Assembly: GCF_900108585.1 (NCBI RefSeq)
Contig: NZ_UESZ01000001.1
Coordinates: 248,001-312,000 of the forward strand
Direction of reading: 5' to 3'
Source of the DNA: Branchiibius hedensis
GTDB taxonomy: Bacteria > Actinomycetota > Actinomycetes > Actinomycetales > Dermatophilaceae
Length of the DNA: 64,000 nt
Shown here: positions 28,116-46,748 of the stretch, one piece after another
Layout of the letters: each line of letters starts with the position of its first letter
Position numbering within the stretch: the stretch's first letter is position 1
The notes under the pieces: generated by a model
What the model was told of the DNA's origin: nothing
Databases searched by the model: none
The model's input: the letters and a program-made list of their open reading frames with translations, nothing else
Made by a program: the position numbers and the translations under genes

Positions 28116-28328
28116 ATGGCGAAGAAGAAGTGGTCCGACCTGTCCACCGGCCAGCAGGCCGCAGTCGTAGCGGCGGGTGCCGTCGAGGTGGTCCTCACCG
28201 CATACGCGTTGACCGATCTGGTCCGCCGGCCGGCCTCCGCCGTGCGCGGGCCGAAGCTGCTGTGGGCCGCGGGATGCTTCGTGCAACCGCTTGGTCCAAT
28301 CGCCTATCTGGCGCGGGGTCGACGCTAG
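28116..28328 (+). CDS. Small membrane protein with PLDc_N-type domain
   Basis: A 70-residue protein with two probable membrane segments (AAVVAAGAVEVVLTAYALTDLV and LLWAAGCFVQPLGPIAYLARG). The spacing of AYALTDLVRRP and QPLGPIAYL fits the stand-alone phospholipase D N-terminal (PLDc_N) membrane family. Function unknown. The stop shares the CTAG at 28325-28328 with pxpC on the other strand. Confidence 0.75.
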   Translation: MAKKKWSDLSTGQQAAVVAAGAVEVVLTAYALTDLVRRPASAVRGPKLLWAAGCFVQPLGPIAYLARGRR

Positions 28329-31655: not shown

Positions 31656-31726
31656 TTCCCATCGGACTGTGATCTGCGCTACATTGTTCGCTGTAAGAAC
31701 AGATGTGCGCAATGCGAACATTCGCA
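31656..31726 (+). promoter_or_regulatory. Promoter and IclR-type operators of the hydroaromatic operon
   Basis: Possible -35 TTCCCA (31656-31661) and -10 TACATT (31680-31685), 18 bp apart. Just downstream lie TGTTC/GAACA arms (31685-31701), the motif GTGCGCAATGCGAAC (31705-31719), and the palindrome TGCGAACATTCGCA (31713-31726). The 15-bp motif recurs before iclR and pcaH. Placement over the transcription start suits repression relieved by a ligand. Confidence 0.6.
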
Positions 31727-31760
31727 GAGCGTGAGCAGGGCGACGTCAAAGGAGCACCCC

Positions 31761-33167
31761 ATGCCGGATCTGTCGGATATGCATCTACCGGGCCATGACC
31801 GCCCGGAACTGAAGAAGACCCCAGGAAAGGCCGCGGCCAGCGGCTGGGTGGGTAGTGCGCTTGAGTACTACGACTTCTTCCTCTACGCCAGCGCCGCGGC
31901 TCTGGTCTTCCCCCAGGTCTTCTTCCCCAAGGGCAACGACGCGGTCGCCATCATCGGGTCGCTGGCGACCTTCGGTGTCGGCTACGTCGCCCGGCCGGTC
32001 GGTGCGTTCTTCATGGGCCACTTCGGAGACACCATCGGACGCAAGAAGGTCCTGGTCATCTGCATGATGATGATGGGGACATCGACGTTCCTGGTCGGCT
32101 GTCTGCCCAGTTACGACACCATCGGCCTCTGGGCGCCGGCTGCGTTGGTCTTCCTGCGGCTGCTGCAGGGCTTCGCGGTCTCCGGTGAGTTGGCCGGTGC
32201 CGCCGCCATGACGCTGGAGCACGCACCGTTCGGCAAGCGCGGTTTCTACGGCAGTTTCAACTTGCAGGGCACGCAGGCGGGGCAGATTCTGGCGGCAGCG
32301 CTGTTCATCCCGCTGTCCGCGTGGTTGCCCGACGACCAGTTCACCAGCTGGGGCTGGCGCATCCCCTTCCTCTTGAGCGCGCTGGTGGTGCTCGCGGCGT
32401 ACATCATCCGCAGCCGGGTCGATGAGACTCCGGCCTTCCAGGAGGAGATCCTGGAGAACGAGGTGCCTCGCGCCCCCATCCCGACGGCCTTCGCCCAGAG
32501 CAAGGCCAACATGGCTCGAGTCATGATCATGTGCTTCGTCAACGCCGTCGCGGTGACGACAACCGTCTTCGGTGCGGCCTACGCCACCCAGGACGGCTAC
32601 GGCCTGAAGATGGACAAGACGACCTTCTTGTGGATCCCGGTGGCCGGCAACATTGCCGCCGTCCTGATCATCCCGTTCGTCGGGCGCCTGTCGGACAAGA
32701 TCGGTCGCCGACCGGTCTACATCACCGGGACCCTGCTGTCCGGTGCCCTGGTCTTTCCCTACCTGGTGGCTATCCAGCACAAGAACGACCTGGCCGCGTT
32801 GGTGATGGCCGTGGTCATGTGGGGCGTCTTCTACCAGGGCTACAACGCGGTGTACCCCTCCTTCTTCCTGGAGCTGTTCCCGACCAAGACCCGGGTGACC
32901 GCCACGGCGATCGCCACTCAGGTGGGCTTCGGCTTCACCGGCTTCATCCCGACTCTGGAGAGCTGGATCGCCCCTCCCGGGACGAACCGATCGGTGCCAC
33001 TGACCGTGGGACTGTTCGTCTTCGGTTTCACCATCCTGGCGGCGATCGCGGCGTACACGGTGCGCGAACCCTTCCGGATCCCGTTGGATCAGTTGGGTAA
33101 GCGCGACGCCCAGCCGTTGAGCAAGGAAGAGTACGAGCAGGCGCGATCCCAGCCTGTGTCGGTCTGA
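31761..33167 (+). CDS. MHS-family MFS transporter, probable hydroaromatic acid importer
   Basis: A 468-residue, 12-helix proton symporter of the metabolite:H+ symport (MHS) family that includes shikimate transporter ShiA. Signatures are SALEYYDFFLYASAAALVFPQVFFP, GHFGDTIGRKKVLV and LLQGFAVSGELAGAAAMTLEHAP. ATG 31761 is chosen for the AAAGGAG six bases upstream; a GTG at 31731 is weaker and falls near the operators. The stop overlaps the next ATG. Given the downstream pathway, shikimate or a related acid is the probable substrate. Confidence 0.88.
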   Translation: MPDLSDMHLPGHDRPELKKTPGKAAASGWVGSALEYYDFFLYASAAALVFPQVFFPKGNDAVAIIGSLATFGVGYVARPVGAFFMGHFGDTIGRKKVLVICMMMMGTSTFLVGCLPSYDTIGLWAPAALVFLRLLQGFAVSGELAGAAAMTLEHAPFGKRGFYGSFNLQGTQAGQILAAALFIPLSAWLPDDQFTSWGWRIPFLLSALVVLAAYIIRSRVDETPAFQEEILENEVPRAPIPTAFAQSKANMARVMIMCFVNAVAVTTTVFGAAYATQDGYGLKMDKTTFLWIPVAGNIAAVLIIPFVGRLSDKIGRRPVYITGTLLSGALVFPYLVAIQHKNDLAALVMAVVMWGVFYQGYNAVYPSFFLELFPTKTRVTATAIATQVGFGFTGFIPTLESWIAPPGTNRSVPLTVGLFVFGFTILAAIAAYTVREPFRIPLDQLGKRDAQPLSKEEYEQARSQPVSV

Positions 33168-34213
33168 TGCCGCAACTGGGAATCGCCGTCGCCGGAGCAG
33201 GTCTGATCGGCCGCCGGCACATCGAAGAAATCGTCGCCTGCGATGCGACCCGGTTGGTGGGGGTGCTCGACCCGGCCCCCACCGGCCGGGAGGTCGCAGC
33301 CGCGTACGACGTCCCGTGCGTCGACAGCTGGCCGGACCTTTTCGATCGGTGCCGCCCCGACGGTGTCATCGTCGCGACCCCCAACGCGCAGCACGTGCCG
33401 GGCGGCCTGGCCTGTATCGAAGCGGGCATCCCGGTCCTCGTCGAAAAGCCCCTCGCGCCGACAACGGCTGAGGCCGAAGTGCTGGTCGCAGCCGCGGAGA
33501 CGTCTGGCGTGCCCTTGTTGGTCGGACACCACCGCCAGCACAGCCCGCTGCTGCGCGAAACCCGCGCGATCATCGACTCCGGCGCATTGGGCAGCATTGT
33601 CGCGGTGAGCGGTTCGGCGACGTTCGCCAAGCCGGCCGACTACTTCGACGTCGGAGGTGGGTGGCGGCGCGAACCCGGTGGTGGTCCGGTGCTGATCAAC
33701 CTGGTGCACGACGTGAACGCGTTGCTCGGGCTGTTCGGTCCGATCGTGCAGGTCGAGGCGATCGCCGCCAACGCGACCCGGGGGTTCCCCGTCGAAGACA
33801 CGGCCGCGATCCTGTTCCGGTTCGCCAGCGGCGCGCTCGGGACCTTCACCCTGTCCGATGCGGCGGCTTCGCCGTGGTCCTGGGAGCAGACCGCACAGGA
33901 GAACCTGGCCTACCCGACGTTCCCCGATGAGGACTGCTACCGGATCAGTGGCACTCTCGGCTCGCTCGGCGTGCCGACCATGCGGCTGCGGACCACGACC
34001 GGCGAACCATCGTGGTGGTCGCCGATGCAGACGCGCGTGCTGGAGGTGCACCGCACCGATCCGTTGGCGGAACAGATCGCGCACTTCGCAGCGGTGATCC
34101 GAGGAGAGTGCGCCCCGTTGGTCACCGGCCGCTCCGGTCTGGAGACGTTGCGGGTGATCGACGCCATCGAGCAATCGATCGCCCGTGGCGCCGAGATGGC
34201 GGTCGCGTCATGA
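33167..34213 (+). CDS. Gfo/Idh/MocA-family NAD(P)-dependent oxidoreductase
   Basis: A 348-residue two-domain oxidoreductase. The Rossmann motif GIAVAGAGLIGRRHIEEI starts at residue 5, VATPNAQHV and the EKPLA motif (about 92-96) follow, and the second domain has GGGPVLINLVHDVNALLGLFG with the conserved His. Relatives oxidise polyols such as myo-inositol. In this operon it may oxidise a ring hydroxyl of a cyclohexane/cyclohexene carboxylate. One-base overlap with the transporter gene. Confidence 0.88.
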   Translation: MPQLGIAVAGAGLIGRRHIEEIVACDATRLVGVLDPAPTGREVAAAYDVPCVDSWPDLFDRCRPDGVIVATPNAQHVPGGLACIEAGIPVLVEKPLAPTTAEAEVLVAAAETSGVPLLVGHHRQHSPLLRETRAIIDSGALGSIVAVSGSATFAKPADYFDVGGGWRREPGGGPVLINLVHDVNALLGLFGPIVQVEAIAANATRGFPVEDTAAILFRFASGALGTFTLSDAAASPWSWEQTAQENLAYPTFPDEDCYRISGTLGSLGVPTMRLRTTTGEPSWWSPMQTRVLEVHRTDPLAEQIAHFAAVIRGECAPLVTGRSGLETLRVIDAIEQSIARGAEMAVAS

Positions 34214-35028
34214 CCGATCGTACTCTCGGCCTGGCTCACTTGTCCCTCATCGAGCTCACCCCGCCGCAGCTGGTCGAGGTCGCCGCAGGCGCCGGTTTCG
34301 AGGTGGTCGGCGTGCGGGCCCGCGCGGTCACCGCAGCTGAGTCGCCCTTCGACCTCAGTATCGGGTCGCCGCTGCTCCAGCAAACCGTCGAGCGCTGTGC
34401 CGACCTCGGCGTGAGCGTCCAGGACGTGGAGTTCATTCTGTTGAATGGCGCTGTGACACAGGATGATTGGCTGCCGATGTTGGACACTGCGGCCGCCCTC
34501 GGTGCTCAGTCGGTGACTGTCGCGGTCGATGACCCGGATCGGGACCGGGCGCTGGGTGCGATCACCGGGGTGGTTGCGGATGCGCGGGATCGCTCGTTGA
34601 CGGTCACCCTGGAGCCGATCTCCTACAACAGCCTGCACTCGCTGCCCGAGGCATTCGACCTGGCCCAGCACGCCGACTGTCTGATCCTGCTCGACGCTCT
34701 GCACCTGTTGCGCTTCGGGGCAACGACCGATCAGGTACGCCGAGTGGCTGGCCGGGTCGGTCTGGTCCAGGTCTGCGACGCCCCGGCCCAGCGACCTGCT
34801 GACAAGGCCGCTCTGGTCGCGGAATCGCGGGTCGAGCGACTCGCCCCGGGGCTGGGCGACGCCGACGTCACCGGTCTCTTGCAAGCGGTTGCTCCTGAGG
34901 TGGTTGTCAGCGTCGAGTGCCCTAGTGCGATCGGTCGGCGGACCCGATCTGCGCAGCAGTGGGCGCAGTATCTGTACGACACAACGGTTTCCGCGATCAA
35001 GGAAGCGGAGGAAGGACACGATGACTGA
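34210..35028 (+). CDS. TIM-barrel sugar-isomerase / IolE-like family protein
   Basis: A 272-residue protein of the AP-endonuclease-2/sugar phosphate isomerase superfamily, which also contains inosose dehydratase and 3-dehydroshikimate dehydratase. Candidate metal ligands are Glu in VTLEPISYNS, Asp/His in ILLDALHLLRFG, the VQVCDAP segment and Glu in VSVECPSA. ATG 34210 overlaps the preceding stop (ATGA). It sits directly after a MocA-type dehydrogenase, the same pairing as IolG/IolE. Could be a dehydratase or epimerase. Confidence 0.75.
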   Translation: MTDRTLGLAHLSLIELTPPQLVEVAAGAGFEVVGVRARAVTAAESPFDLSIGSPLLQQTVERCADLGVSVQDVEFILLNGAVTQDDWLPMLDTAAALGAQSVTVAVDDPDRDRALGAITGVVADARDRSLTVTLEPISYNSLHSLPEAFDLAQHADCLILLDALHLLRFGATTDQVRRVAGRVGLVQVCDAPAQRPADKAALVAESRVERLAPGLGDADVTGLLQAVAPEVVVSVECPSAIGRRTRSAQQWAQYLYDTTVSAIKEAEEGHDD

Positions 35029-36795
35029 CGCAGCGATGCTCAGCGAGCAGGGCCCTGTCGAGGCCTTCGACGAAGTCGTCGATGTGCTCGTGGTCGGATC
35101 GGGCGCCGGTGGTTTGGCTGCTGCGGTCACCGCCGCGGACAGTGGCTGCTCGGTCATGGTGGCGGAGAAGGCGGACCGCTGCGGTGGTGCGACCGGTCGC
35201 TCCGGCGGTTGGATGTGGACACCGGGCACGTCGTTCGCCAAGGCCGACGGGGTGGACGAGGATCCGCTGGACGGACCGCGCACCTACCTCGAGCAGCGGC
35301 TGGGCGAGCAGTTCGACGCCTCGCGCGTGGAAGCCTATCTGCGTGCCGCGCCGCGCATGGTCGACTTCTTCCAGCAGCGGACCCACCTCACCTTCACCCC
35401 GGGCTCCTGGATCCACGACATCTACGGGGACACTCCGGGCGCCGGCACCGGGCACCGCTCGGTCGGACCGGATCCAATCGACACCAACACGCTGCCGGAG
35501 CGGGTGCGCAGCATCCTGCCGAAACAACTATGGGAGACCTCGTTCCTGGGCATGGGCATTATGGCCGGTCCCGACCTGCAGGGCTTCCTACGCGCCGCAC
35601 AACGCGATCCGCGCGGACTGTGGCACGCAACCAAACGAACCACCAGGCACCTGCTGGACCTGACCCTGCACCGGGAGAGCCGCCACCTGGTCAACGGCGC
35701 CGCCCTGATCGCCCGCCTCCTCGCCTCGGCCGACGACCTCGGCGTCGACGTCCGAGTGAACACGGCGGTGCGCTCCTTGATCCGCGACAGCAGCGGCGCG
35801 ATCCGCGGTGCCGTGCTCGAAAGTCCCCGTGGCACAGTGACGGTCGGTGCCCGACGCGCAGTTGTGCTGGCAGCGGGTGGGTTCCCGGCCGACGTACGGC
35901 GACGGGTCGAGTTCTTCCCGCACGGCACCGGAGCGGACCATCACACGTTGGCTCCGGCCACCGACACCGGCGACGGGCTACGGATGGGCACCTGGGCCGG
36001 TGGCGATCTGGACACGAGCGTTGCCTCACCGGTCGCCTGGTGCCCGGTCTCCCTCGTGCCGCACCGCGGCCGAGCAGACGGGGTCTTCCCGCACATCATG
36101 GACCGCGGCAAACCAGGCATCATCGGCGTCACGGCGGATGGGCGACGATTCGTCAACGAAGCCAACGGCTACCACGACTACGTGCTCGGCATGTTGCGGG
36201 CAACACCCGAGGGCCAGCCCGTGGAGTCCTGGCTGATCGCAGACCACCGAGCGCAGCGACGGTACCCGCTGGGAATGTCCAAACCCTTCCCGGTGCCGGT
36301 GTGGCCCTACCTGCGCAGCGGCTATCTCCAACGCGCGGACACCCTGGAGGAGCTGGCCGAGAAGTGCGGCATCGACGGCGCTCAGTTGGCGAAGACCGTC
36401 CAGCAGTTCAACGAAGAGGCGGCTCGCGGGCAGGATCCCGAATACGGCCGGGGGACAACTGCATTCAATCGATACTCCGGTGACCCGACCGTGCGGCCGA
36501 ACCCGACACTGGCGGTACTGGACCGTCCGCCGTACTACGCGGTGAAGGTGCTGCCGGGATCATTCGGAACGTTCTTGGGGCTGCGCGCCGACGAGCGTTC
36601 GCGGGTGCTGAGCGCCGACGGTTCGGTCATTCCCGGACTGTACGCCGTGGGTACCGACCAGGGCTCGGTCTTCGGCGGGCACTACCCGTCGGGGGCATCA
36701 ACATCGGGCCGGCGATGGTTTTCGGATATCTGACTGGTCTGGAAGCGGCCGCGGCACAAACGTTTTCATCGCAAGCCGTGGAGGCAACGAGATGA
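35021..36795 (+). CDS. FAD-dependent dehydrogenase (KstD / fumarate reductase flavoprotein family), apparent 3' frameshift
   Basis: A flavoprotein of about 590 residues with the FAD motif DVLVVGSGAGGLAAAVTAADSG, GGATGRSGGWMW, FVNEANGYHDYV and the C-terminal GLYAVGTDQGSVFGGHYPSG. Members include 3-ketosteroid-1-dehydrogenases, which desaturate rings. As sequenced it stops at 36733. One extra G in the run at 36691-36695 restores the family ending (GINIGPAMVFGYLTGLEAAA) with a stop at 36793-36795 overlapping the next ATG. ATG 35021 overlaps the upstream stop by eight bases. Possible role: ring desaturation or aromatisation. Confidence 0.85.
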
Positions 36796-37673
36796 GCACG
36801 ACTGCGCAGTCCTACCTGGTCGGGTTGATCGGTGATGGCGTCCTGCCGTCGCTGACCCCGCCGATGCACGAGCACGAGGCCGACGCGCACGGGTTGCGCT
36901 ACCTCTACCGCCCGCTGGACCTGGCGATGATGGGCCGGCGTCCTGAGCAGGTGGGAGACATCCTGCACGAGGCAGTCGGGCTGGGCTACAACGCTTTCAA
37001 CATCACCTTCCCGTGCAAGCAGTTGGCGATCGCCCATCTGGACGAGATCGCCGAGGACGCCCAACGTCTTGAGGCAGTGAATACCGTTCTGGTGCAGGAT
37101 GGTCGGCTCATCGGGCACAACACCGATCGTTCGGGCTTCGCCTCGGGTCTGGCCACCGGTCTGCCCGGTGCCGATCTGACCCGCGTGGTACTGATGGGTT
37201 CTGGCGGCGCCGGATCGGCCGTGGCCTACGCCATCCTCGAAGCAGGCGCCGAGCGCCTCGACATCCTGGACCTCGACGCCGACCGGGCGACCGAGCGCGC
37301 GAACCACCTGGCGGCGTACTTCCCGGGTGCGCGGGTGCACGGTGGCGGGATCGACGAGTTGCCAGTCCGGCTGACCAGGGCCACCGGTTTGGTCAACGCC
37401 ACCCCGGTCGGGATGCACCATCACCCCGGAATTCCGGTGGATGCGGCCCTGCTGGATGCCCGGTTGTGGGTGGGCGACATCGTGTATCGGCCGGTGCGCA
37501 CGCCGCTGATCGTCGCCGCCGAAGCAGCCGGTTGCCGGGTGCTGGACGGTGGCAACATGGCAGTGGGACAGGCGGTTGACGCGTTCGGGCTGATCACCGG
37601 GGTCACGGCTGACCGGGTCCGTATGCGGGCGCATTTTCTGGCGCTGGTGGACGCGGAGTCCGCGGCGCACTGA
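36792..37673 (+). CDS. Quinate/shikimate dehydrogenase (catabolic, QsuD/AroE-like)
   Basis: A 293-residue NAD(P)-dependent dehydrogenase. The substrate domain has LIGDGVLPSLTPPMHEHEADAHG, the catalytic Lys in FNITFPCKQLAI and Asp in GHNTDRSGF. The cofactor site is VLMGSGGAGSAVAYA, and ATPVGMHHHPG follows. The S-x-T-P-x-M-H-E pattern is that of catabolic QsuD-type enzymes rather than biosynthetic AroE. Predicted to oxidise shikimate to 3-dehydroshikimate (and/or quinate to 3-dehydroquinate). Fifth gene of the operon. Confidence 0.85.
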   Translation: MSTTAQSYLVGLIGDGVLPSLTPPMHEHEADAHGLRYLYRPLDLAMMGRRPEQVGDILHEAVGLGYNAFNITFPCKQLAIAHLDEIAEDAQRLEAVNTVLVQDGRLIGHNTDRSGFASGLATGLPGADLTRVVLMGSGGAGSAVAYAILEAGAERLDILDLDADRATERANHLAAYFPGARVHGGGIDELPVRLTRATGLVNATPVGMHHHPGIPVDAALLDARLWVGDIVYRPVRTPLIVAAEAAGCRVLDGGNMAVGQAVDAFGLITGVTADRVRMRAHFLALVDAESAAH

Positions 37674-37721
37674 CGAATCCACACCGGACCGATACGATGG
37701 TGCGAGATACGAACATTCGTA
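37670..37721 (+). promoter_or_regulatory. Promoter and operator of the iclR gene
   Basis: Possible -35 CTGACG (37670-37675), 17 bp, -10 TACGAT (37693-37698). Immediately downstream lie the 15-bp motif GTGCGAGATACGAAC (37700-37714) and the palindrome TACGAACATTCGTA (37708-37721), the same arrangement as before the transporter gene. It suggests autoregulation. Confidence 0.55.
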
Positions 37722-37733
37722 CGTTATGCGCAC

Positions 37734-38540
37734 ATGGGGGCACTCGTGACCGTTGATGACACCGACGCACCGGCAGTGGAGCGTGACGGCCGGGTGCAGA
37801 GTCTGGCCAAGGGGCTGGCAGTGATCCAAGCGTTCGACGCGGCGCACCCGGAGCAGACCCTGAGCGATGTCGCCCGAAGTACGGGGCTGACCCGGGCCAC
37901 TGCGCGGCGCTTCCTGCTGACGTTGATCGACCTGGGTTACATGCGCACGGACGGCCGGTTGTTCCGGCTCACCCCGCAGGTGCTGAATCTGGGTCATGCC
38001 TATCTGTCGTCCCTGCAGTTGCCCGAGATCGCCCAGCCCCATCTGCAGGAACTCTCCGATCAGGTTGGTGAATCTTCCTCTGTTGCAGTGTTGGACGGCT
38101 CGGACATCGTCTACGTCGCGCGGGTTGCGTTGAAACGGATCATGACCGTCGCCATCACGGTCGGCACCCGGTTCCCGGCGTACGCCACCTCGATGGGCCA
38201 GGTGTTGTTGGCCGACCTCGACCCCCAAGAGTTGGACGAGGTACTGGCCCGCACCGATCTCGTACCGCTCACGCCACAGACCGTGACCAGCCGCAGCCAA
38301 CTGGAGAAGGAACTCGCCGGGGTGCGAGAGAGCGGCTACAGCCTCAACGATCAGCAACTCGAGATCGGCCTGGTTTCCTTGGCGGCACCGATCCGGGGCT
38401 CGGACGGGCGGGTCATTGCGGCCGTGAACGTGTCGACCAGGGCGGGCAATGCCGAGCAACTGCGCACCGAGCAGTTCCTGCCCGCACTGTTGAGGGCTGC
38501 GACGGCCATCAGCGACGACGTCCGGCTCGCCGGACTCTGA
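37734..38540 (+). CDS. IclR-family regulator (PcaR/PobR-like)
   Basis: A 268-residue regulator. The N-terminal winged helix (SLAKGLAVIQAFDAAHPEQTLSDVARSTGLTRATARRFLLTLIDLGYM, about residues 23-70) is followed by the IclR ligand domain (SVAVLDGSDIVYVARVALKR, FPAYATSMGQVLLADL, GYSLNDQQLEIGLVSLAAPIR). It most resembles the group that controls protocatechuate and hydroxybenzoate genes. ATG at 37734. Shared operators suggest it controls the transporter operon, itself and the pca operon. Confidence 0.9.
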   Translation: MGALVTVDDTDAPAVERDGRVQSLAKGLAVIQAFDAAHPEQTLSDVARSTGLTRATARRFLLTLIDLGYMRTDGRLFRLTPQVLNLGHAYLSSLQLPEIAQPHLQELSDQVGESSSVAVLDGSDIVYVARVALKRIMTVAITVGTRFPAYATSMGQVLLADLDPQELDEVLARTDLVPLTPQTVTSRSQLEKELAGVRESGYSLNDQQLEIGLVSLAAPIRGSDGRVIAAVNVSTRAGNAEQLRTEQFLPALLRAATAISDDVRLAGL

Positions 38541-38552
38541 GCGGGTACGCCG

Positions 38553-40406
38553 ATGCATCAGTCGATCGCGACCGTTTCCGTCAGCGGGGGGCTGGCGGAC
38601 AAGCTCTCGGCCATCGCTGCCGCAAAATTCGACGGGATCGAGATCTTCGACCAGGATCTGATCTCCAGCCCACTCTCACCGGCCCAGGTCGCGGATCGAT
38701 GCGCGGAACTGGGGTTGAGCATTGACTTGTTCCAGCCGGTCCGCGACGTGGAAGGCGTTGCACCGCAAGCATTCGCCGCGGTGGAGCACAGGCTGCGGGT
38801 GAAGCTGACGGTGATGCGCGATCTGGGCGTCACGACCCTGCTGGCCTGCTCCAACACGTTGCCGGGGGCGATCGACGATCCCGATCTGTCCGCCGAGCAG
38901 TTGCACCGACTGGGTGAACTTGCCGCCGACCAGGGCTGCCGCATCGCGTTCGAGGCGCTTGCCTGGGGGCGACACGTCAGCCGGATCGGCCAGGCATGGG
39001 ACATCGTGCAACGGGCCGACCACCCTGCGGTCACCGTTGCGGTGGACACCTTCCACATGCTCGCCCGCGGTGACGGAGCAGAAGCACTCGAACACATTCC
39101 TGGTGACCAGATCGGCTTCCTGCAGGTGGCCGACGCCCCGGTGCTCGGAATGGATGTGCTGCAGTGGAGTCGCCACCACCGGGTCTTCCCCGGGCAAGGT
39201 GGCTTCGATCTCGCGCCGCTGGTCGCCAAGGTCTTCGAGGTCGGCTACCGCGGCCCGCTGTCCTTGGAAGTCTTCAGCGACGTGATCCGGGAGGCCGATG
39301 CCTCGATCACCGCGCTGGACGCCAAGCGTTCCCTGTTACATCTGGAGGAGGAATTGCGTCGGCACTGGGCCGCCGCCGGTGTCGCCCGACCACGCATCGG
39401 CCTCTTCGATCCACCACCGGTGCCCTCTGATCCAGAGGTCGGGTTCATCGAAATCGCCACAGAGCCAGCGCAACTCGATGTCCTGCTGACGGCGGCAGGC
39501 TTCCGAGTCGCCGGGCGGCACCGCAGCAAGCCGGTGACGTGGTGGGCGAACGGCGGAGCCAACCTGCTCACCAATGAGTCGACTCCTGACACTGATCGGT
39601 GGGTAGCGGACCAACCCCGGCCGACCGTGACTGGCGTGGGTCTGCAGGTCGACGACGTCAGCGGGTTCACCGGGCGCCGGGAAGCCCTCTTGTGGCCCGC
39701 CCTGCCGCTTCGCCGGGGCGAAGGCGAAGCACCGCTGGCCGGTGTCGACAGTCCGGCCGGAATCCACTACTTCGTTTCCGGACAACCCGGCACCCGCGAG
39801 GACTGGCGCCTGGACTTCGTGCCGGAGCGGATTCCGCGACCGGCCGGCGAGGGTGCGTGGTCCGCGTTGGATCATCTCGGATACCCCGTCGCGTTCGACG
39901 TCAGTGAGGCCGAGATCTCCTTCTACCGGACCCTTTTCGGGTTGCTGCCCGGTGACGTTTCGGAGTTCATCGACCCTCGCGGACGGTTGCGCAGCCGGGT
40001 GATGCACTCCGACGCAAGCTCGGCGCGCGTCGTACTCAACGTTACCGAAGGGCACTTCGCGGCTCCGCGCCGTGGGCTGAACCAACTCGCGTTCGGTTGC
40101 TCCGACGTTCTCGCGGCGTCCACCGCGATGCGGGCGGCCGGCGTACCTCTGCTCGCGGTGCCGGCCAACTATTACGTGGATCTGGACGCTCGGTTCGACC
40201 TACCAGAGGAGCAATTGGCGCAGTGGCGCGAGGCGGGCGTGATGTACGACCGGGACGAGAGCGGCGGTGAGCTGCTGCACGTCTACACCGACCGGATCGC
40301 CGGGGCGTTCTACGTCGAACTGGTCCAGCGCAGTGGGGGGTACGACGGGTATGGCGCCGCCGGAACTCCCGTGCGCCTGGCGGCGCAGCGCGACATCGAG
40401 CTCTGA
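38553..40406 (+). CDS. quiC: 3-dehydroshikimate dehydratase, two-domain (QuiC1-like)
   Basis: A 617-residue fusion. Residues 1-280 are a TIM-barrel dehydratase with EALAWGRHVSRIGQAWDIV, VAVDTFHMLARGDG, FLQVADAPVLGMDVLQWSRHHRVFPGQGG and LSLEVFSDVIREAD (metal-ligand Glu, Asp, Gln, Glu regions). From about 290 to the end there are two HPPD-like vicinal-oxygen-chelate repeats (LDHLGYPVAFDVSEAEISFYRTLFGL, YVDLDARFDL, GELLHVYTD). This is the layout of pseudomonad QuiC1, which converts 3-dehydroshikimate to protocatechuate. 12 bases after iclR, likely the same transcript. Confidence 0.92.
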   Translation: MHQSIATVSVSGGLADKLSAIAAAKFDGIEIFDQDLISSPLSPAQVADRCAELGLSIDLFQPVRDVEGVAPQAFAAVEHRLRVKLTVMRDLGVTTLLACSNTLPGAIDDPDLSAEQLHRLGELAADQGCRIAFEALAWGRHVSRIGQAWDIVQRADHPAVTVAVDTFHMLARGDGAEALEHIPGDQIGFLQVADAPVLGMDVLQWSRHHRVFPGQGGFDLAPLVAKVFEVGYRGPLSLEVFSDVIREADASITALDAKRSLLHLEEELRRHWAAAGVARPRIGLFDPPPVPSDPEVGFIEIATEPAQLDVLLTAAGFRVAGRHRSKPVTWWANGGANLLTNESTPDTDRWVADQPRPTVTGVGLQVDDVSGFTGRREALLWPALPLRRGEGEAPLAGVDSPAGIHYFVSGQPGTREDWRLDFVPERIPRPAGEGAWSALDHLGYPVAFDVSEAEISFYRTLFGLLPGDVSEFIDPRGRLRSRVMHSDASSARVVLNVTEGHFAAPRRGLNQLAFGCSDVLAASTAMRAAGVPLLAVPANYYVDLDARFDLPEEQLAQWREAGVMYDRDESGGELLHVYTDRIAGAFYVELVQRSGGYDGYGAAGTPVRLAAQRDIEL

Positions 40407-40419
40407 CGCGTGGGGGCGA

Positions 40420-41085
40420 TCAGCCCTGGCGCAGCGGAACCTTCACCAGGTCGGCCAACTCATCGAAGCCGATGCCGAACGTCTCCCGCACGACCACGCC
40501 GTCCTGCTCGATCAGGAACACCGCCAGGTCGGTGTAGATGCGGCTGACACAGGCAACGCCGGTCAGCGGATAGCTGCAGGTCTCCACCAGTTTCGAATCG
40601 CCCTGTCGGGTCAGCAGATTCATCATGACGAAGGTGTCCTTGGCGCCGATGGCCAGGTCCATCGCGCCGCCCACTGCGGGGATGGCGTCGGGGGCTCCGG
40701 TGTGCCAGTTGGCAAGGTCCCCGGTGACCGACACCTGGTAGGCGCCCAGCACGCAGATGTCGAGGTGACCGCCGCGCATCATCGCGAAGGAATCGGCGTG
40801 GTGGAAGTAGGAGGCACCCGGCAACTCGGTGACTGGGATCTTCCCGGCGTTGATCAGGTCGAGATCGACCTGATCGCCGGTGGCCTCCGGACCCATCCCC
40901 AGCATGCCGTTCTCGGTGTGCAGGGTGACCCCACTGGCCGGGTCGAGGTAGTTCGAGACCAGCGTGGGCTGGCCGATCCCCAGGTTGACGTAGGCGCCGG
41001 CCGGGATGTCGGCAGCGATCAGCTTGGCCAGCGCATGTTTGTCCAGCCGGCTGGGTGTGCTCGTGGCGTCGGTGGTCATGGTCAC
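40420..41085 (-). CDS. pcaJ: 3-oxoadipate CoA-transferase subunit B
   Basis: A 221-residue beta subunit that transfers CoA from succinyl-CoA to 3-oxoadipate. The catalytic Glu lies in TLHTENGMLGMGP (about residue 58). NLGIGQPTLVSNYL and GGAMDLAIGAKDTFVMM are typical. GTG 41085 overlaps the pcaI stop; ATG 41079 two codons later is an alternative. Last gene of the pca operon; it converges with quiC 13 bases away. Confidence 0.93.
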   Translation of the reverse strand: MTMTTDATSTPSRLDKHALAKLIAADIPAGAYVNLGIGQPTLVSNYLDPASGVTLHTENGMLGMGPEATGDQVDLDLINAGKIPVTELPGASYFHHADSFAMMRGGHLDICVLGAYQVSVTGDLANWHTGAPDAIPAVGGAMDLAIGAKDTFVMMNLLTRQGDSKLVETCSYPLTGVACVSRIYTDLAVFLIEQDGVVVRETFGIGFDELADLVKVPLRQG

Positions 41086-41774
41086 TGTCCCTGCTCCTGA
41101 TCGGGTACGGCGGCCTGCGGGATGACGACCACCTGGTCGACATACAGGCCGGGGGTGATGACGTTCTCCGGGTCGATGTCGCCCACCGGCACGACCTGGT
41201 GCACCTGCGCGATCGTCCGGTCGGCAGCGGCGGCCATGATCGGTCCGAAGTTGCGAGCGGTCTTGCGGTAGACCAGGTTTCCCACCTGGTCAGCGGTGTG
41301 GCCCTTGATCAACGCGAAGTCGCCGCGGATCGGGTACTCCAACACGTAATGCTTCCCGTCGATCTCGCGGGTTTCCTTGCCCTCGGCGATCGGCGTGCCG
41401 TACCCGGTGGGGGTGAAGAAGGCCCCGATCCCGGCACCGGCGGCACGGATCCGCTCGGCCAGGTTGCCCTGCGGCACCAGCTCGAGTTCGATCTCGCCGG
41501 CGCGGTACTTCGCGTCGAACTGGTGGCTGTCGCTCTGCCGGGGGAAGGAGCAGATGATCTTGCGGACCCGGCCGGCACCGATCAACGCGGCGAGTCCGAC
41601 GTCGCCGTTGCCTGCGTTGTTGTTGACGATCGTCAGATCGGTGGCGCCGCTGTCGACGAGTGCCTCGATGAGTTCGACCGGTTGCCCGGCCGTGCCGAAC
41701 CCGCCGACCAGGATGGTGGCGCCGTCCGGGATGTCGGCTACCGCTGCCGCAGCGCTCTGGGTGACTTCGACCAT
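41082..41774 (-). CDS. pcaI: 3-oxoadipate CoA-transferase subunit A
   Basis: A 230-residue alpha subunit. GATILVGGFGTAGQPVELIEAL near the start, CSFPRQSDSHQFDAKYRAGEIELELVPQGNLAERIRAAGAGIGAFFTPTGYGT and GLYVDQVVVI near the end match the family. ATG 41774; the longer reading into pcaF is an artefact. It forms the transferase with the overlapping downstream pcaJ product. Confidence 0.94.
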   Translation of the reverse strand: MVEVTQSAAAAVADIPDGATILVGGFGTAGQPVELIEALVDSGATDLTIVNNNAGNGDVGLAALIGAGRVRKIICSFPRQSDSHQFDAKYRAGEIELELVPQGNLAERIRAAGAGIGAFFTPTGYGTPIAEGKETREIDGKHYVLEYPIRGDFALIKGHTADQVGNLVYRKTARNFGPIMAAAADRTIAQVHQVVPVGDIDPENVITPGLYVDQVVVIPQAAVPDQEQGQ

Positions 41775-41778
41775 GGCC

Positions 41779-42981
41779 TCAGGCCCCTTGCGTGGTGTTC
41801 TCGAGGACGACGGCCAACCCCTGGCCGACGCCGATACAGATGGCGGCCACGCCCCAGCGCTGCCCGCTGTGTCGCAGTTGCTTGGCCAACGTGGCCAGGA
41901 TCCGGCCGCCGGAGGCACCCAGCGGGTGCCCGATGGCGATGGCGCCACCATGGGCGTTGACGATCTGCGGATCGATCTGCCAGGCGTCAAGGCACGCCAG
42001 CGACTGCGCGGCGAAGGCTTCATTGAGCTCGACCGCGCCGACGTCGGACCAGGAGATGCCGGCCTGGCGCAGGGCCCGCTCGGCGGCCTCGACCGGCGCA
42101 TACCCGAAGTACCGCGGGTCGCCCGCAGCCGCGCCGCGCCCGGCGATGCGGGCAAGGGGGGCGCGACCCAGTCGCTCGCCGGCGGCTTCGGACGCCACCA
42201 GCAGGGCGGAAGCGCCGTCGTTGAGCGGTGATGCGTTGCCGGCGGTGACGGTGCCGTCGGTCTTGCGGAACGACGTGCGCAACCTGGCGAGGGTCTGCGG
42301 GGTGGTCTCCGGGCGGATCGACTCATCGCGAGCCAACTCCACTCCGTCGACGGCGACGACTAGGTCGTCGTAGAAGCCATCGCGCCACGCCGCGTCAGCC
42401 AGCTGGTGGGAACGCGCGGCGAACTCGTCCTGTCGTTCGCGGCTGATGTCGTACTTCTCGCGCAGCAGCTCCGTGGCTTCACCCAGCGACACGGTCCATT
42501 CCGCCGGCATCGCGGGATTGACCAGTCGCCAGCCCAGGGTGGTGGACGAAAGCTGCAGATTACCTGCCGGATAGGGCTTTTCGGTCTTCGGTAGCACCCA
42601 CGGCGCCCGGGTCATCGATTCCACCCCGCCGACCAGGATCACCTCAGCATCACCGGTCTCGATCTGACGAGAGGCAATCATCGCGGCGTCGAGGCTCGAG
42701 CCGCACAGCCGGTTCACCGTGGTGCCGGGAAGGCTCGTGGGCAGGCCGGCAAGCAGGGTGGCCATGCGAGCGACGTTGCGGTTCTCCTCGCCGGCTCCGT
42801 TGGCGTTGCCGAAGATCACCTCGTCGATGACGCTCGGGTCGGCACCCAGCGCCGGTGTCCGTTCGACGATCGACCGGACCACCGTTGCGGCCAGGTCGTC
42901 GGGACGCACCCCGGCGAGGGCGCCGCCGAACCGGCCGAACGGCGTACGCACCCCGTCATAGACGAACGCTGACTGATTCAT
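41779..42981 (-). CDS. pcaF: 3-oxoadipyl-CoA thiolase
   Basis: A 400-residue thiolase that cleaves 3-oxoadipyl-CoA to succinyl-CoA and acetyl-CoA. Active-site Cys lies in VNRLCGSSLDA (about residue 90), with NAHGGAIAIGHPLGASG (His) and AAICIGVGQGLAVV (Cys) toward the C-terminus. ATG 42981 overlaps the pcaC stop. Four bases separate it from pcaI. Confidence 0.95.
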   Translation of the reverse strand: MNQSAFVYDGVRTPFGRFGGALAGVRPDDLAATVVRSIVERTPALGADPSVIDEVIFGNANGAGEENRNVARMATLLAGLPTSLPGTTVNRLCGSSLDAAMIASRQIETGDAEVILVGGVESMTRAPWVLPKTEKPYPAGNLQLSSTTLGWRLVNPAMPAEWTVSLGEATELLREKYDISRERQDEFAARSHQLADAAWRDGFYDDLVVAVDGVELARDESIRPETTPQTLARLRTSFRKTDGTVTAGNASPLNDGASALLVASEAAGERLGRAPLARIAGRGAAAGDPRYFGYAPVEAAERALRQAGISWSDVGAVELNEAFAAQSLACLDAWQIDPQIVNAHGGAIAIGHPLGASGGRILATLAKQLRHSGQRWGVAAICIGVGQGLAVVLENTTQGA

Positions 42982-43388
42982 TCTCCGGCTCCCTCTTGCT
43001 CATCAAATGCGGCGATCTCGCGTTCGGCGATCGCGAACGCGTGGTTGGCGCTGGGTACCCCCAGGTAGATCGCAGCCTGCAGCAGTACTTCCTGGATCTG
43101 CTCGACGCTCATCCCGTTCCGGCGCGCGGCGCGCACGTGCATCGCGAACTCGTCCCAATGGTCCCGGGCGATCAACGCGGTCAGGGTGATGGCGCTGCGG
43201 GTCGGTCGGTCCAGGCCCGGCCGGGTCCAGATCTCACCCCAGGCGTAGCGCGTGATCAGGTCCTGGAAGGGCTCGGTGAACGCCGTGGTGGCTGCTTGCG
43301 CTCGATCGACGTGGGCGTCGGACAACACCGCGCGACGGACGGCCAAACCCTCACTGGTGGCGTCGGATTCGGTGCGGTCGGGTCTCAT
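42978..43388 (-). CDS. pcaC: 4-carboxymuconolactone decarboxylase
   Basis: A 136-residue CMD-family enzyme that removes CO2 from 4-carboxymuconolactone to give 3-oxoadipate enol-lactone. TRYAWGEIWTRPGLDRPTRSAITLTALIARDHWDEFAMHVRAARRNGMSVEQIQEVLLQAAIYLGVP is the family core. In many Actinobacteria this activity is fused to the enol-lactonase (PcaL); here the two are separate, overlapping genes. Confidence 0.94.
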   Translation of the reverse strand: MRPDRTESDATSEGLAVRRAVLSDAHVDRAQAATTAFTEPFQDLITRYAWGEIWTRPGLDRPTRSAITLTALIARDHWDEFAMHVRAARRNGMSVEQIQEVLLQAAIYLGVPSANHAFAIAEREIAAFDEQEGAGE

Positions 43389-44170
43389 CGGATCTCCTTG
43401 GTCAGGAAGGTGTCGAGCAGCGCCGCAACGGCAGCAGGCTGCTCGGCCGGTGCCAGATGGGCGGCGCCGGTGATCAGCGCCGCCTGACCGTTGGTGCCGG
43501 CTGCGATCTCCTCGGCGAACGACAACGGGGTCACCTCGTCATGGTCTCCGGCGACGGCCAGGACCGGGATCCGTATGTCCGACAGACTGTTTCGTGCGTC
43601 GAACGCGGCCAACGCCTCGCAGCACGCGGCGTAGGACTCTTTGTCAGTGTGTTGTAAGCCGTTCAGCAGGGTGGTCCCGGTGCCAGGGTCACGCTCGAGG
43701 AAGCCGGACGCGAACCAGCGCTGCGCCGAACCGCTCACCATGACCGGGGTGCCCGCGCGTCGGACCAGAGTGGCGCGGTCGTGCCAGCCTTCGGGCGTAC
43801 CGATCTTGGCGCCGGAGCACACCGGCGCGACACCGGCGAGTTCCGTGCCGTGATCGATGGCCAGCTGCAGTCCGACGGTGCCGCCGAGCGAAACACCCGC
43901 GTAGTACGGCGCCGCCGAATGTTCCTCGCGCACAGCACTGGTCGCGCTCCACACGACTGTTGCCAGGTCGGCGATCGTGAACGGATCCGGATCAGGGACG
44001 CTTCGGCCGTGCCCGGGAAGGTCCCAGCCGACGACGGTGACCGGCCCGGCCAGGGCGCGTGCGCAGGCGTCCCACAGCGGGGTGACTGCGGTGCCCAGAG
44101 AGGGGCCGACGATCAGCAGGACGGCTTGCGGGCCATCGTCGCGCAGGAGGGACACAGTGGGTTGCTTCAC
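43385..44170 (-). CDS. pcaD: 3-oxoadipate enol-lactonase
   Basis: A 261-residue alpha/beta hydrolase that opens 3-oxoadipate enol-lactone. Nucleophile elbow GVSLGGTVGLQLA (Ser near residue 94), VVGWDLPGHGRSVPDPDPF, catalytic Asp in VAGDHDEVTP and His in GAAHLAPAEQP. GTG 44170 overlaps the pcaB stop; the long upstream reading within pcaB is rejected. Acts directly after PcaC. Confidence 0.92.
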   Translation of the reverse strand: MKQPTVSLLRDDGPQAVLLIVGPSLGTAVTPLWDACARALAGPVTVVGWDLPGHGRSVPDPDPFTIADLATVVWSATSAVREEHSAAPYYAGVSLGGTVGLQLAIDHGTELAGVAPVCSGAKIGTPEGWHDRATLVRRAGTPVMVSGSAQRWFASGFLERDPGTGTTLLNGLQHTDKESYAACCEALAAFDARNSLSDIRIPVLAVAGDHDEVTPLSFAEEIAAGTNGQAALITGAAHLAPAEQPAAVAALLDTFLTKEIR

Positions 44171-45384
44171 GAATCCAGCTCCTTGCGCAACGTGGCGTGT
44201 GCGTCCAACGTGCGATCGATCAACGCAGGCACAACCCCCAGATAGTCCGCGGCAGAGACCGATTCGTCGGGGCGCACCGACCGTCGTTCGGCGACCAGTG
44301 CGGGCATTGCCGCATCGACGTTGGCTTGCATGGCCTCGCGGTGCACCTCCAGGCCGCTGAGGACCTCTGCCGCCTGACTGGCTGCGGTCGGCACGAGGGT
44401 CAGCAGCGACATCACGGGCTGCCACTCCGCATGCCACGCACCGTCGGGGCGTTCGTCGGCGGCCAGGGCGGCGCTGGTGTGCAGCGATGCCGACAGGTGC
44501 GGCGCCTGCAGCGCGGCGGAGCGGACCAGCACCGACAACACCGGGTTGTGCTTCTGCGGCATCGTCGAGGATCCGCCGCGACCGGTCGCCTGCGGCTCGG
44601 ACAACTCACCGATCTCCGGGCGGGCGGCCAGGACGATGTCGCCGGCGATCTTGCCGAGGATGTCCGACGCGCGGGTCAGGCCATCGCCGAGGGCGGTGAC
44701 GGGGGAGCGGTCGGTATGCCAGGGACCCAACGGCTCAGTCAGGCCCAACCGATCGGCCAGGAGACCGGGTGCGGTGGCAGCCAGCCCGGGGGCCAGCGTC
44801 TCCAGCAGTGACAACGTGCCGGCCGCGCCACCGCACTGGACCGGGAAGTTCAGCGCGGACACAGCGCGCAGGGCATCATCCAGCCCACGCAACCAACCCG
44901 CCGCCTTCGCGCCGAACGTCGTGGGGACCGCCGGCTGACCGAGGGTGCGCGCGGTCATGACGGTGCCGCGTTCGCGCTGCGCCAGGTCAGCAACGGCATC
45001 GGCGGCCGCCAGCAGACTGCGCTGCAGCTGCGCGGCGCAGTCCCGCGCGATCAGCATCACGGCGGTGTCGATGACGTCCTGGCTGGTGAGTCCCTTGTGC
45101 ACCAAAGCTGCCGTCGCTGAATCGCTTTCGGCAACCTGGGCCCGTAGTGCGGCCACGACCGGGATGGCCGGGTTACCGCCGGACTCGACGTTGGCGGCTA
45201 GTTGCGACACGTCGTACCTGCTGGGGTTGCACGCGTCGGCGACCACCTGCGCCTGCTGCGCGGTGAGCACGCCGAGGTCGCCGAGCACCCCGGCCCACGC
45301 AGATTCGACCGACAGCATCGCCGAGAGCACCGCGGTGTCATCGGTCAGGCCGTCGGCGCGATCGGCGCCCGGGGTCAGCAGCAT
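44167..45384 (-). CDS. pcaB: 3-carboxy-cis,cis-muconate cycloisomerase
   Basis: A 405-residue member of the fumarase/aspartase superfamily that lactonises 3-carboxymuconate. The superfamily signature GRGGSSTMPQKHNPVLS lies near residue 275; HKGLTSQDVIDTAVML and TARTLGQPAVPTTFGAKAAGW are also conserved. Slightly short of the 440-450 residues seen in many homologues, lacking part of the C-terminal region. Four bases after pcaG. Confidence 0.93.
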   Translation of the reverse strand: MLLTPGADRADGLTDDTAVLSAMLSVESAWAGVLGDLGVLTAQQAQVVADACNPSRYDVSQLAANVESGGNPAIPVVAALRAQVAESDSATAALVHKGLTSQDVIDTAVMLIARDCAAQLQRSLLAAADAVADLAQRERGTVMTARTLGQPAVPTTFGAKAAGWLRGLDDALRAVSALNFPVQCGGAAGTLSLLETLAPGLAATAPGLLADRLGLTEPLGPWHTDRSPVTALGDGLTRASDILGKIAGDIVLAARPEIGELSEPQATGRGGSSTMPQKHNPVLSVLVRSAALQAPHLSASLHTSAALAADERPDGAWHAEWQPVMSLLTLVPTAASQAAEVLSGLEVHREAMQANVDAAMPALVAERRSVRPDESVSAADYLGVVPALIDRTLDAHATLRKELDS

Positions 45385-45388
45385 GGGA

Positions 45389-45961
45389 TCAGTCCTGATG
45401 GCGCGGGTAGCTCAGGAAGACGGTCTCGTCCTCGCCCTGCAAGCGGATGTCGAAGCGCAGCGTCCGCTCGTCCTCCTGCACACACAGCAAAGTCGAACGA
45501 CGCTCGGGGTCAACAGAACTCAGCAACGCGTCGTTGGCCAACGCGGTGTCGTCGCCGGGCACGTAGGCACGGGTGAACAACCGGTTGAGCAGGCCGCGGG
45601 CGAAGACGGTCACCGCGAAGAAGGGTGCAGCGCCGTCCCTGGTCGGCCCGGGGGTGAGCGTCGAGAAGGTGAAGTAGCCGTCGCGGCGGGTGGCAGTCCG
45701 GCCGAATCCGGTGAAGGTGAATTCGTCCCGATCGCGGCGCAGCGAACCTTGCTGCTGCGGGATGCGACCGTCGGCGTCGGCCTGCCAGATCTCGACCAGC
45801 GCGTCCTGCAGGCCGTCGCCGTTGCCGTCGAGGACCCGCCCGTGCAGTCTGATTGCACCGGGCGTTCCAACCGAGGCGATGAGATGTCCTGTCTCCCAGG
45901 GCAATCCGTAGTGGAAGAACGGACCGATGGTCTGTCCGGGGGTTGGGGTCAACTCAGGCAT
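45389..45961 (-). CDS. pcaG: Protocatechuate 3,4-dioxygenase alpha subunit
   Basis: A 190-residue intradiol dioxygenase subunit, structurally like the beta subunit but without the iron ligands. TPGQTIGPFFHYGLPWETG at the start, ALVEIWQADADGRI and FTFSTLTPGPTRDGAAPFFAVTVFARGLLNRLFTRAYVPGD are typical. ATG 45961 overlaps the pcaH stop by eight bases, fitting stoichiometric synthesis. Confidence 0.95.
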   Translation of the reverse strand: MPELTPTPGQTIGPFFHYGLPWETGHLIASVGTPGAIRLHGRVLDGNGDGLQDALVEIWQADADGRIPQQQGSLRRDRDEFTFTGFGRTATRRDGYFTFSTLTPGPTRDGAAPFFAVTVFARGLLNRLFTRAYVPGDDTALANDALLSSVDPERRSTLLCVQEDERTLRFDIRLQGEDETVFLSYPRHQD

Positions 45962-46748
45962 CGTCGTGCTCCTGCTCCATCCGGGTGGCGTGCGTGCCGG
46001 TCAACACAATGTCCCACCGATAGCCCAGGATCCACTCGTGCTCGGACAGATCGTGGTCGTAGCTGGCGACCAGTCGCTCGCGAGCCGCCGGGTTGGTGAT
46101 CGACTGCAGGATCGGGTCGAGTGGGAAGAGTGGGTCGCCGGGGAAGTACATCTGGGTGATCATCCGCTGGGTGAACTCAGTGCCGAACAGCGAGAAGTGC
46201 ACGTGGGCGGGGCGCCAGGCGTTGCGGTGGTTGCCCCATGGGTAGGGACCTGGCTTGATCGTGGTGAATTCGTAGTTGCCGTCATCATCGGTCAGGGTGC
46301 GACCGGCTCCGGTGAAGTTCGGGTCCAGGGGGGCAGGGTGCTGGTCACGCTTGTGCACATACCGGCCCGCCGCGTTGGCCTGCCAGATCTCGACCAGTTG
46401 TCGGCGCACCGGGCGGCCGTCGCCATCGACGATGCGGCCGGAGATCCGGATCCGCTCGCCGATCGGCTCACCCGTGCCGGCCAGGGTCAGGTCGGCCTCC
46501 AGGGGATCGACGTCGCGCTGCCCGAAGACCGGAGCCAGCAATTCGAGCTCCTCGGGGTCGGCGTGCCAGGCCGCCTTCGTCGGGTGGCGCAACAGCGAGC
46601 TGCGGTACGGCGGGAAGTCCACCCGGGGTTGCAGCAGCGGATCGGCCGACGCGTCCGTGGTCTGGATCGCCTCGATCTCCCGGCTGATCGCCGATTGTGA
46701 GGCGAGGGCGCCCTCGGCATCCGCGGTCTCGATGGTCAGTTCGCTCAT
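45954..46748 (-). CDS. pcaH: Protocatechuate 3,4-dioxygenase beta subunit
   Basis: A 264-residue catalytic subunit that cleaves protocatechuate to 3-carboxy-cis,cis-muconate. Non-heme iron ligands are the Tyr in NAAGRYVHKRDQHPAP, the Tyr in KPGPYPWGN and two His in WRPAHVHFSLFG. ATG 46748 is selected for AAGGAG six bases upstream; a TTG two codons earlier sits directly on that site. First gene of pcaHGBDCFIJ. Confidence 0.95.
   Translation of the reverse strand: MSELTIETADAEGALASQSAISREIEAIQTTDASADPLLQPRVDFPPYRSSLLRHPTKAAWHADPEELELLAPVFGQRDVDPLEADLTLAGTGEPIGERIRISGRIVDGDGRPVRRQLVEIWQANAAGRYVHKRDQHPAPLDPNFTGAGRTLTDDDGNYEFTTIKPGPYPWGNHRNAWRPAHVHFSLFGTEFTQRMITQMYFPGDPLFPLDPILQSITNPAARERLVASYDHDLSEHEWILGYRWDIVLTGTHATRMEQEHDDA

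Follow-up and report, generated by a model that had tools for sequence, protein, structure and literature searches.

The region at 31761-40406 of a 64,000-nucleotide stretch of the Branchiibius hedensis genome (contig NZ_UESZ01000001.1, positions 248,001 to 312,000; hereafter the window) raises the question of why an operon with genes for shikimate breakdown also carries three enzymes, a GFO/IDH/MocA-type dehydrogenase (MocA), a xylose-isomerase-like TIM-barrel protein (TIM) and a flavin adenine dinucleotide (FAD) dependent flavoprotein (FAD_A), which, as an earlier note made from the sequence rightly observed, lie outside the known quinate/shikimate route. We find that they belong to a real, conserved and sparsely distributed module made of known enzyme families. 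This module, a gene combination of which we found no description in the open-licence literature, would extend hydroaromatic catabolism by a further variant. The window operon probably joins two modules, the first with an MHS-family transporter, MocA, TIM and FAD_A, and the second with a quinate/shikimate dehydrogenase (SDH), an IclR regulator and a QuiC-type 3-dehydroshikimate dehydratase (DSD), both feeding the adjacent pca operon.

The module was recognized by gene linkage across genomes. In a first set of 57 loci, 8 had FAD_A matches that span most of the protein at 51-61%, and in a second set matches of at least 50% were present in 9 of 396 genomes of the window's order, its own included. 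A tenth listed genome (G346), with a 41% match in a gene above the cut-off for ChcC2 of the cyclohexanecarboxylate (Chc) pathway, was not counted, and a class-wide search returned FAD_A matches in 2 of 394 genomes, both already in the set. The 17 loci compared here come from Actinomycetota, one alphaproteobacterium (L015, Mameliella) and relatives from the window's order; L016 and L018 (46% identity, TIM not found, L016 only 5.7 kb long) were left out, as were L088, L090 and L091, which carry Chc-type genes (above cut-off in L088, by resemblance in the other two). All 17 loci with FAD_A at 50% identity or more also carry a TIM gene. MocA is present in 13 of them, matches of 28-30% in L083 and L089 being left uncounted, and SDH in 12 (that of L015 at only 31%); every locus has one or both. 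An MHS or tripartite tricarboxylate transporter accompanies them in 15 loci. The 47 control loci (L021-L067), which surround weaker or partial flavoprotein matches, vary in length and are in part cut by contig ends, yielded no TIM and no SDH at 60 bits or above and a single MocA gene. This implies that the occurrence of TIM beside FAD_A (17/17 vs 0/47) is not due to chance. At its smallest, the gene set comprises FAD_A-TIM-MocA2 (G288) or SDH/FAD_A-TIM (Kocuria, L013).

FAD_A belongs to the Pfam family FAD_binding_2, and its best curated model is PRK12839 (847 bits for the window copy and 940.8 for the intact copy of L014, cut-off 940). The best-scoring Chc model, and the best among named hydroaromatic functions, is that of ChcC2 (4-oxocyclohex-2-ene-1-carboxylate 5-dehydrogenase, NF053677; 476 bits, below its cut-off of 900), with the ChcC1 model at 254 bits. 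In G075, the FAD_A cluster has genuine ChcC1 (1035 bits) and ChcC2 (1013 bits) genes, both over their cut-offs, as immediate neighbors, and the FAD_A of the same genome reaches 486 bits with the ChcC2 model, which sets the FAD_A clade apart from the Chc enzymes. There (L087 1666-14572) the Chc genes adjoin a cluster of FAD_A, FAD_B and FAD_C, two desaturase pathways side by side. For FAD_B of L014 and G075, the best Chc model is ChcC1. The catalytic residues of KstD named in PMC5348764 are Tyr119, Tyr318, Tyr487 and Gly491, which we mapped by hand count on a printed alignment with 4c3x, assuming a 20-residue tag. Tyr318 and Tyr487 correspond to Tyr384 and Tyr555 of FAD_A, each kept in 9 of 9 rows, and Gly491 to position 559, where 8 of 9 rows have Gly and only the frameshifted window copy does not.

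For TIM, Pfam gives AP_endonuc_2 alone, and an NCBIfam search that included the IolE model returned no family at E 0.001. Profile alignment places TIM closer to the dehydratase domain of QuiC (E 5e-20, 223 columns) than to the IolE-like proteins of relatives (E 7e-10, 141 columns), the latter being comparison rows of which none attains the IolE cut-off (exceeded in 0 of 29 genomes). A first tree of 31 rows (TIM, QuiC and IolE-like proteins) was dropped as evidence for a grouping of TIM with QuiC, because where only three groups are present, without outside rows, the branch uniting these two is the same as the IolE branch, and 12 further TIM-barrel proteins were therefore added. In the resulting tree of 43 rows TIM and QuiC form one group without IolE [support 95/92, in 96% of 200 bootstrap trees], with the qualification that 11 of the 12 added proteins derive from weak IolE matches, a bias toward the IolE side, and that several branches are long. 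An AlphaFold2 model of TIM (predicted local distance difference test score 93.6) was compared with solved structures, and Lmo2234 [Z 29.7, root-mean-square deviation (rmsd) 2.5, 252 aligned], IolI [Z 29.5, rmsd 2.4, 252 aligned] and QuiC1 [Z 29.0, rmsd 2.5, 256 aligned] were tied as the top folds, ahead of IolE 3cny [Z 24.8, rmsd 2.9, 250 aligned], so that the function is not decided by the fold alone. By sequence, the sole relative of solved structure is Lmo2234.

Ten active-site residues are reported for QuiC1/QsuB in PMC7442255. Of these, Glu134, Asp165, His168, Arg210 and Glu239 of DSD are kept in 9/9 TIM rows (E135, D162, H165, R210 and E236 of TIM) and Gln191 in 8/9 (Q187); Leu136 is replaced by Ile, Phe or Met, and the position of Leu97 is variable. 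From these kept residues and the grouping with QuiC, TIM is probably a beta-eliminating dehydratase that works in the manner of DSD, possibly on a substrate other than 3-dehydroshikimate.

These same results also bear on a different and rather unlikely explanation, in which the additional enzymes are auxiliary to shikimate and quinate breakdown. TIM would then be a second, QuiC2-like DSD or a stand-in dehydroquinate dehydratase, MocA would serve stereoisomers, and the flavoprotein would act first, giving 3-dehydroshikimate, with TIM last. This would agree with Lmo2234 as the only solved relative by sequence, with the tie among the three folds and with the grouping of TIM and QuiC, as well as with the inclusion of SDH and QuiC in one strand unit with TIM and the absence of a dehydroquinate dehydratase gene from the window operon (G000 has one type-II gene, outside the operon). 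However, type-II dehydroquinate dehydratase is found in 11 of 11 genomes searched and QuiC in all nine FAD_A genomes searched, and a second dehydratase for the same substrate is unlikely to have been kept in 17/17 loci. Because a TIM limited to 3-dehydroshikimate would be redundant in every FAD_A genome searched, we favor a placement of TIM before FAD_A, acting on a saturated ketone.

The second module is of a more familiar kind. SDH, IclR and QuiC look like a standard shikimate module, which in the 8 relatives searched stands away from FAD_A. SDH scores above the cut-off of PRK12549 (385 bits, cut-off 235) and below that of the QsuD-type PRK14027 (244 bits, cut-off 515); IclR scores 324 bits with TIGR02431, the PcaR/PcaU/PobR model (cut-off 285); and QuiC, which combines a TIM-barrel and an HPPD-like domain, has 495 bits with NF042435, below its cut-off of 1200. 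The genome-wide searches for QuiC and PcaH drew on the second set; L011-L015, L017, L019 and L020 belong to the first. Both genes are present in all nine FAD_A genomes searched, and the same QuiC search was positive in G346 and negative in G002. In 8 of 8 relatives QuiC lies away from FAD_A (that of G258 in two pieces). It adjoins an SDH of 55-62% identity to that of the window in G117, G212, G040 and G398 and one of 44% in G288; G158, G075 and G258 have an SDH some 3 kb away from QuiC. This separation implies that the FAD_A-TIM module adds to the standard route. The window and L015 are the loci in which FAD_A-TIM is joined to SDH-QuiC.

Protocatechuate genes are near FAD_A in 4 of 17 loci, namely the window (the pca operon), L011 (pcaF, J, I and C), L015 (QuiC) and G212, where the genes for a protocatechuate 4,5-dioxygenase and for LigK/PcmE, each scoring above cut-off, are about 15 kb from FAD_A. 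On contig 8 of G212 (L103/L083), a few kb separate these 4,5-cleavage genes from the end of the FAD_A cluster at which FAD_C lies, and the genome also has PcaH. Taken together with QuiC being elsewhere, the protocatechuate genes of the four loci point to protocatechuate as the product, made by a route besides the standard one.

From the observed gene content, linkage, family placement and catalytic residues we infer the reactions, their order, the substrate and the regulation of such a route. The acid imported by the transporter of the first module would be a cyclohexane carboxylate that is saturated and hydroxylated, in the simplest case dihydroshikimate (3,4,5-trihydroxycyclohexane-1-carboxylate) or one of its stereoisomers. 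Oxidation of a ring hydroxyl to a ketone would fall to MocA, or to an SDH in other genomes, as the NAD(P)-dependent dehydrogenase, TIM would remove the beta-hydroxyl as water to leave an enone, and the KstD/ChcC2-like flavoprotein would desaturate the other side of the ketone, after which the ring would tautomerize to protocatechuate. An order with FAD_A last, on the enone, as ChcC2 acts, is suggested by genome content. The atom balance is exact for a trihydroxycyclohexane carboxylate (C7H12O5 -2H -H2O -2H = C7H6O4), and shikimate and quinate balance to protocatechuate without desaturation, needing an oxidation and either one or two dehydrations. The second module would perform the standard conversion of shikimate through 3-dehydroshikimate to protocatechuate. 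We regard the case for the three-step chemistry (oxidize, dehydrate, desaturate) ending in protocatechuate as evenly balanced, and dihydroshikimate itself as a possible but doubtful substrate. The earlier note had proposed such an oxidize-dehydrate-desaturate module, feeding a hydroaromatic acid into protocatechuate or a sister aromatic; linkage, families, transporter type, protocatechuate genes and atom balance fit it, with the change that SDH, IclR and QuiC look like a separate standard module.

An extra ChcC1-like flavoprotein, FAD_B (at least 50%), is found in 9 of 17 loci. The second flavoprotein could convert 3,4-dihydroxycyclohexane carboxylate (C7H12O4) to protocatechuate by desaturation alone, and the branches with one and with two flavoproteins would then meet at one hydroxy-oxo-cyclohexene carboxylate. 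In G000 and G288, with no FAD_B-type match at E 1e-60, one flavoprotein seems to be enough. We propose, tentatively and with a little less than even confidence, a separate protocatechuate entry for saturated hydroaromatic acids, in which a DSD relative would act on a saturated 3-keto acid and a ChcC2-like desaturase would follow, and in which the loci with ChcC1-like enzymes would also aromatize 3,4-dihydroxycyclohexane carboxylate.

The flavoprotein might instead oxidize 3-dehydroshikimate directly to gallate, by a ChcC2-like 4,5-desaturation of the existing enone. 3-Dehydroshikimate is an enone like the ChcC2 substrate, the formula fits, the SDH of 12/17 loci could supply it and PcaGH might act on gallate. 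Nevertheless, we consider this highly improbable, because it leaves the constant partner TIM unexplained and because a LigB-domain match is absent from 6 of 9 FAD_A genomes. The match in G000 is a 259-amino-acid LigB protein and that in G288 a 267-codon frame, and of the two in G212 the one near the cluster is the protocatechuate 4,5-dioxygenase (885 bits, cut-off 837; 334 bits with the gallate dioxygenase model, cut-off 412). Gallate as the product was accordingly rejected, with LigB-domain matches in 3 of 11 genomes and only the protocatechuate 4,5-dioxygenase near a FAD_A cluster.

Nor are the first two enzymes of the proposed protocatechuate route members of the IolG and IolE families. The earlier note had read them as an IolG/IolE-like pair, which by family membership does not hold, given the score of MocA with the IolG model TIGR04380 (100 bits, cut-off 355) and the proximity of TIM to QuiC in profile and tree; as an analogy of mechanism, oxidation followed by dehydration, the comparison survives. 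A MocA homologue of 40% identity occurs in L011. That a free cyclitol or sugar is the substrate of the trio in such an inositol-type sequence, its place by the shikimate genes being incidental, is improbable to nearly the same degree as gallate formation. The MocA and xylose-isomerase-like families are known mainly for sugar or cyclitol enzymes, and IolI is tied for the nearest fold. Against it, MocA is far under the IolG cut-off, TIM is nearer to DSD than to the IolE-like proteins, and the company is that of MHS or tricarboxylate transporters (15/17), SDH (12/17), protocatechuate genes (4/17) and a ChcC2-like flavoprotein.

Several observations weigh against the route to protocatechuate that we prefer. 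At the active site of TIM, DSD Ser206 is matched by Ser in 5/9 rows and by Ala in 4/9, and the hhalign counterpart of Arg64, at an alignment gap, is Arg in 3/9. In FAD_A the counterpart of KstD Tyr119 is Ile, Val or Thr in 9/9 rows, so that by the four catalytic residues FAD_A is not a KstD (Tyr119 in 0/9), and the window copy carries a frameshift. Relatives of TIM without FAD_A in the surrounding stretch (G002 at 44% identity, G050 at 35%, G039 at 31%) show that membership in the TIM family does not tie a protein to this pathway. The SDH tree does not set the SDHs of FAD loci apart from those linked to QuiC (5 changes of label, compared with 7.0 on average after shuffling, and 48 of 500 shuffles as low), and thus gives no sign of a special SDH substrate. 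The transporter of L017 is an ABC-type cassette and that of L012 another MFS-like gene (both by eye), the extra flavoprotein in 9/17 loci means that the substrate range there may differ, and in 13/17 loci no protocatechuate gene was recognized in the stretches covered. Finally, we know of no enzyme of this clade that has been assayed.

Concerning G002, a member of the window's own family, the TIM relative lies at L092 8946-9815, with FAD_A not found in the 19 kb around it. The genome also gave no QuiC, SDH or PcaH match at the thresholds used, which implies that its function there must be something else.

The frameshift, like the ChcC2 resemblance, is a feature that the earlier note does not mention. 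It falls in a G run (36691-36695) at the loop with the counterpart of KstD Gly491, and the conserved tail GGINIGPAMxFGY is encoded in another frame, the stop of which (36793-36795) overlaps the SDH start. The tail is in frame in the other 8 rows of alignment A2 and in each of the 15 unsplit relatives compared. As deposited, the window flavoprotein is probably inactive. The deposited sequence fits either a sequencing error or a real mutation. If real, the frameshift would leave the first module (MHS, MocA, TIM and FAD_A) dead and decaying in this genome, which we hold to be a serious possibility that falls somewhat short of even. The tail is lost at the catalytic and flavin loop, and the FAD_A copy of G398 (L089 8227-9968) is split into two frames as well, with the tail on the second piece; yet single-base sequencing errors are also common in G runs, and neither the remainder of the gene nor any other overlap is damaged. 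The claim that start and stop overlap at each junction accordingly applies to three of four, MHS/MocA (1 base, 33167), MocA/TIM (4 bases, 34210-34213) and TIM/FAD_A (8 bases, 35021-35028). At the fourth, the FAD_A stop at 36733 and the SDH start at 36792 do not overlap in the deposited sequence.

The seven reading frames listed in the earlier note were all recovered in place and matched their families in Pfam or NCBIfam, including the IclR and QuiC1-type genes downstream of the first five (Table 1). The gaps from SDH to IclR (60 bases) and from IclR to QuiC (12 bases) are short, so that 31761-40406 can be taken as a single plus-strand unit of seven genes. An alternative GTG start for the MHS gene lies upstream, at 31731. 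The MHS protein scores 369 bits with TIGR00883 (cut-off 443) and 281 with the shikimate transporter model PRK09952 (cut-off 538), and its assignment is thus at family level only.

Table 1. Features of the operon and its surroundings (window coordinates)
Feature	Position	Strand	Remarks
Imperfect inverted repeat, 11-nt arms, 82%	31708..31731	.	Just upstream of operon; possible regulator site, chance possible
MHS-family metabolite:H+ symporter	31761..33167	+	Frame and family models; likely uptake of hydroaromatic acid
GFO/IDH/MocA dehydrogenase (MocA1)	33167..34213	+	Proposed oxidation of ring hydroxyl
Xylose-isomerase-like TIM barrel, kin of dehydroshikimate dehydratases	34210..35028	+	Proposed beta-elimination of water
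KstD/ChcC2-like FAD desaturase (FAD_A)	35021..36733	+	Proposed aromatizing step; C-terminus lost to frameshift
Out-of-frame remnant with conserved FAD_A C-terminal tail	36691..36795	+	Stop overlaps SDH start
Quinate/shikimate dehydrogenase family (SDH)	36792..37673	+	PRK12549 above cut-off
IclR regulator, PcaR/PcaU/PobR group	37734..38540	+	TIGR02431 above cut-off
QuiC/QsuB-type two-domain 3-dehydroshikimate dehydratase	38553..40406	+	Carries every one of the ten active-site residues reported
Convergent pca operon (pcaH, G, B, D, C, F, I, J)	40420..46748	-	Protocatechuate ring cleavage and beta-ketoadipate pathway

In the pca operon PcaH, PcaG, PcaC and the PcaJ-family protein scored above their cut-offs and PcaB, PcaD and PcaF below (PcaI was outside the scan). 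A promoter scan gave 0 promoter-like sites against 0.6 expected, and a terminator scan 4 terminator-like sites against 3.6 expected. Upstream on the minus strand (28325-31635), translations read by eye suggest a set of 5-oxoprolinase-like genes (KipA/KipI-like and LamB/YcsF-like) and a winged-helix protein. In other genomes, an old-yellow-enzyme-like flavoprotein of about 660-740 amino acids adjoins the TIM gene in L011 (1400-4244), L017 (7115-9927), L082 and L084, and next to FAD_A of G288 (L081 7258-8127) there is a small protein with an apparent lipoprotein leader and a weak match to the intradiol-dioxygenase domain (PF00775, 50 bits).

If the proposed pathway is true, it would identify genes for degrading dihydroshikimate-type acids aerobically, and lactic acid bacteria, which reduce quinate to dihydroshikimate, would have an aerobic counterpart in it. 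Two unnamed groups, the FAD family PRK12839 and the TIM-barrel clade, would gain a joint function that can be assayed, and desaturase-driven aromatization would be a general alternative to dehydration in hydroaromatic catabolism.

Among known systems, the Chc pathway of cyclohexanecarboxylate (ChcB, ChcC1 and ChcC2; NF053676, NF053677 and NF053701), for which our search of open-licence papers found no gene description, is similar in that KstD-like FAD enzymes aromatize an oxo-cyclohexane carboxylate. The product of that pathway is 4-hydroxybenzoate, whereas the window module has a DSD-like TIM barrel with SDH or MocA, and its proposed product is protocatechuate. With KstD, FAD_A shares the fold family and, in intact relatives, three of four catalytic residues, but Tyr119 is replaced and the gene context is hydroaromatic, not steroid. 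IolG and IolE offer the same logic of oxidizing and then dehydrating, although MocA and TIM fail their family tests. Listeria Lmo2234 (PDB 2G0W) is the closest solved relative of TIM, despite an identity of only about 23%. We take it to be QuiC2, part of the Listeria qui operon, which the pairing of old-yellow-enzyme-like and TIM genes in the four loci presumably recalls; we know of no FAD_A partner in Listeria. Quinate/shikimate catabolism (Qsu/Qui) is matched by the SDH, QuiC, MHS transporter and pca genes of the window, and the window differs from it in the additional MocA, TIM and FAD_A and in an operon without dehydroquinate dehydratase.

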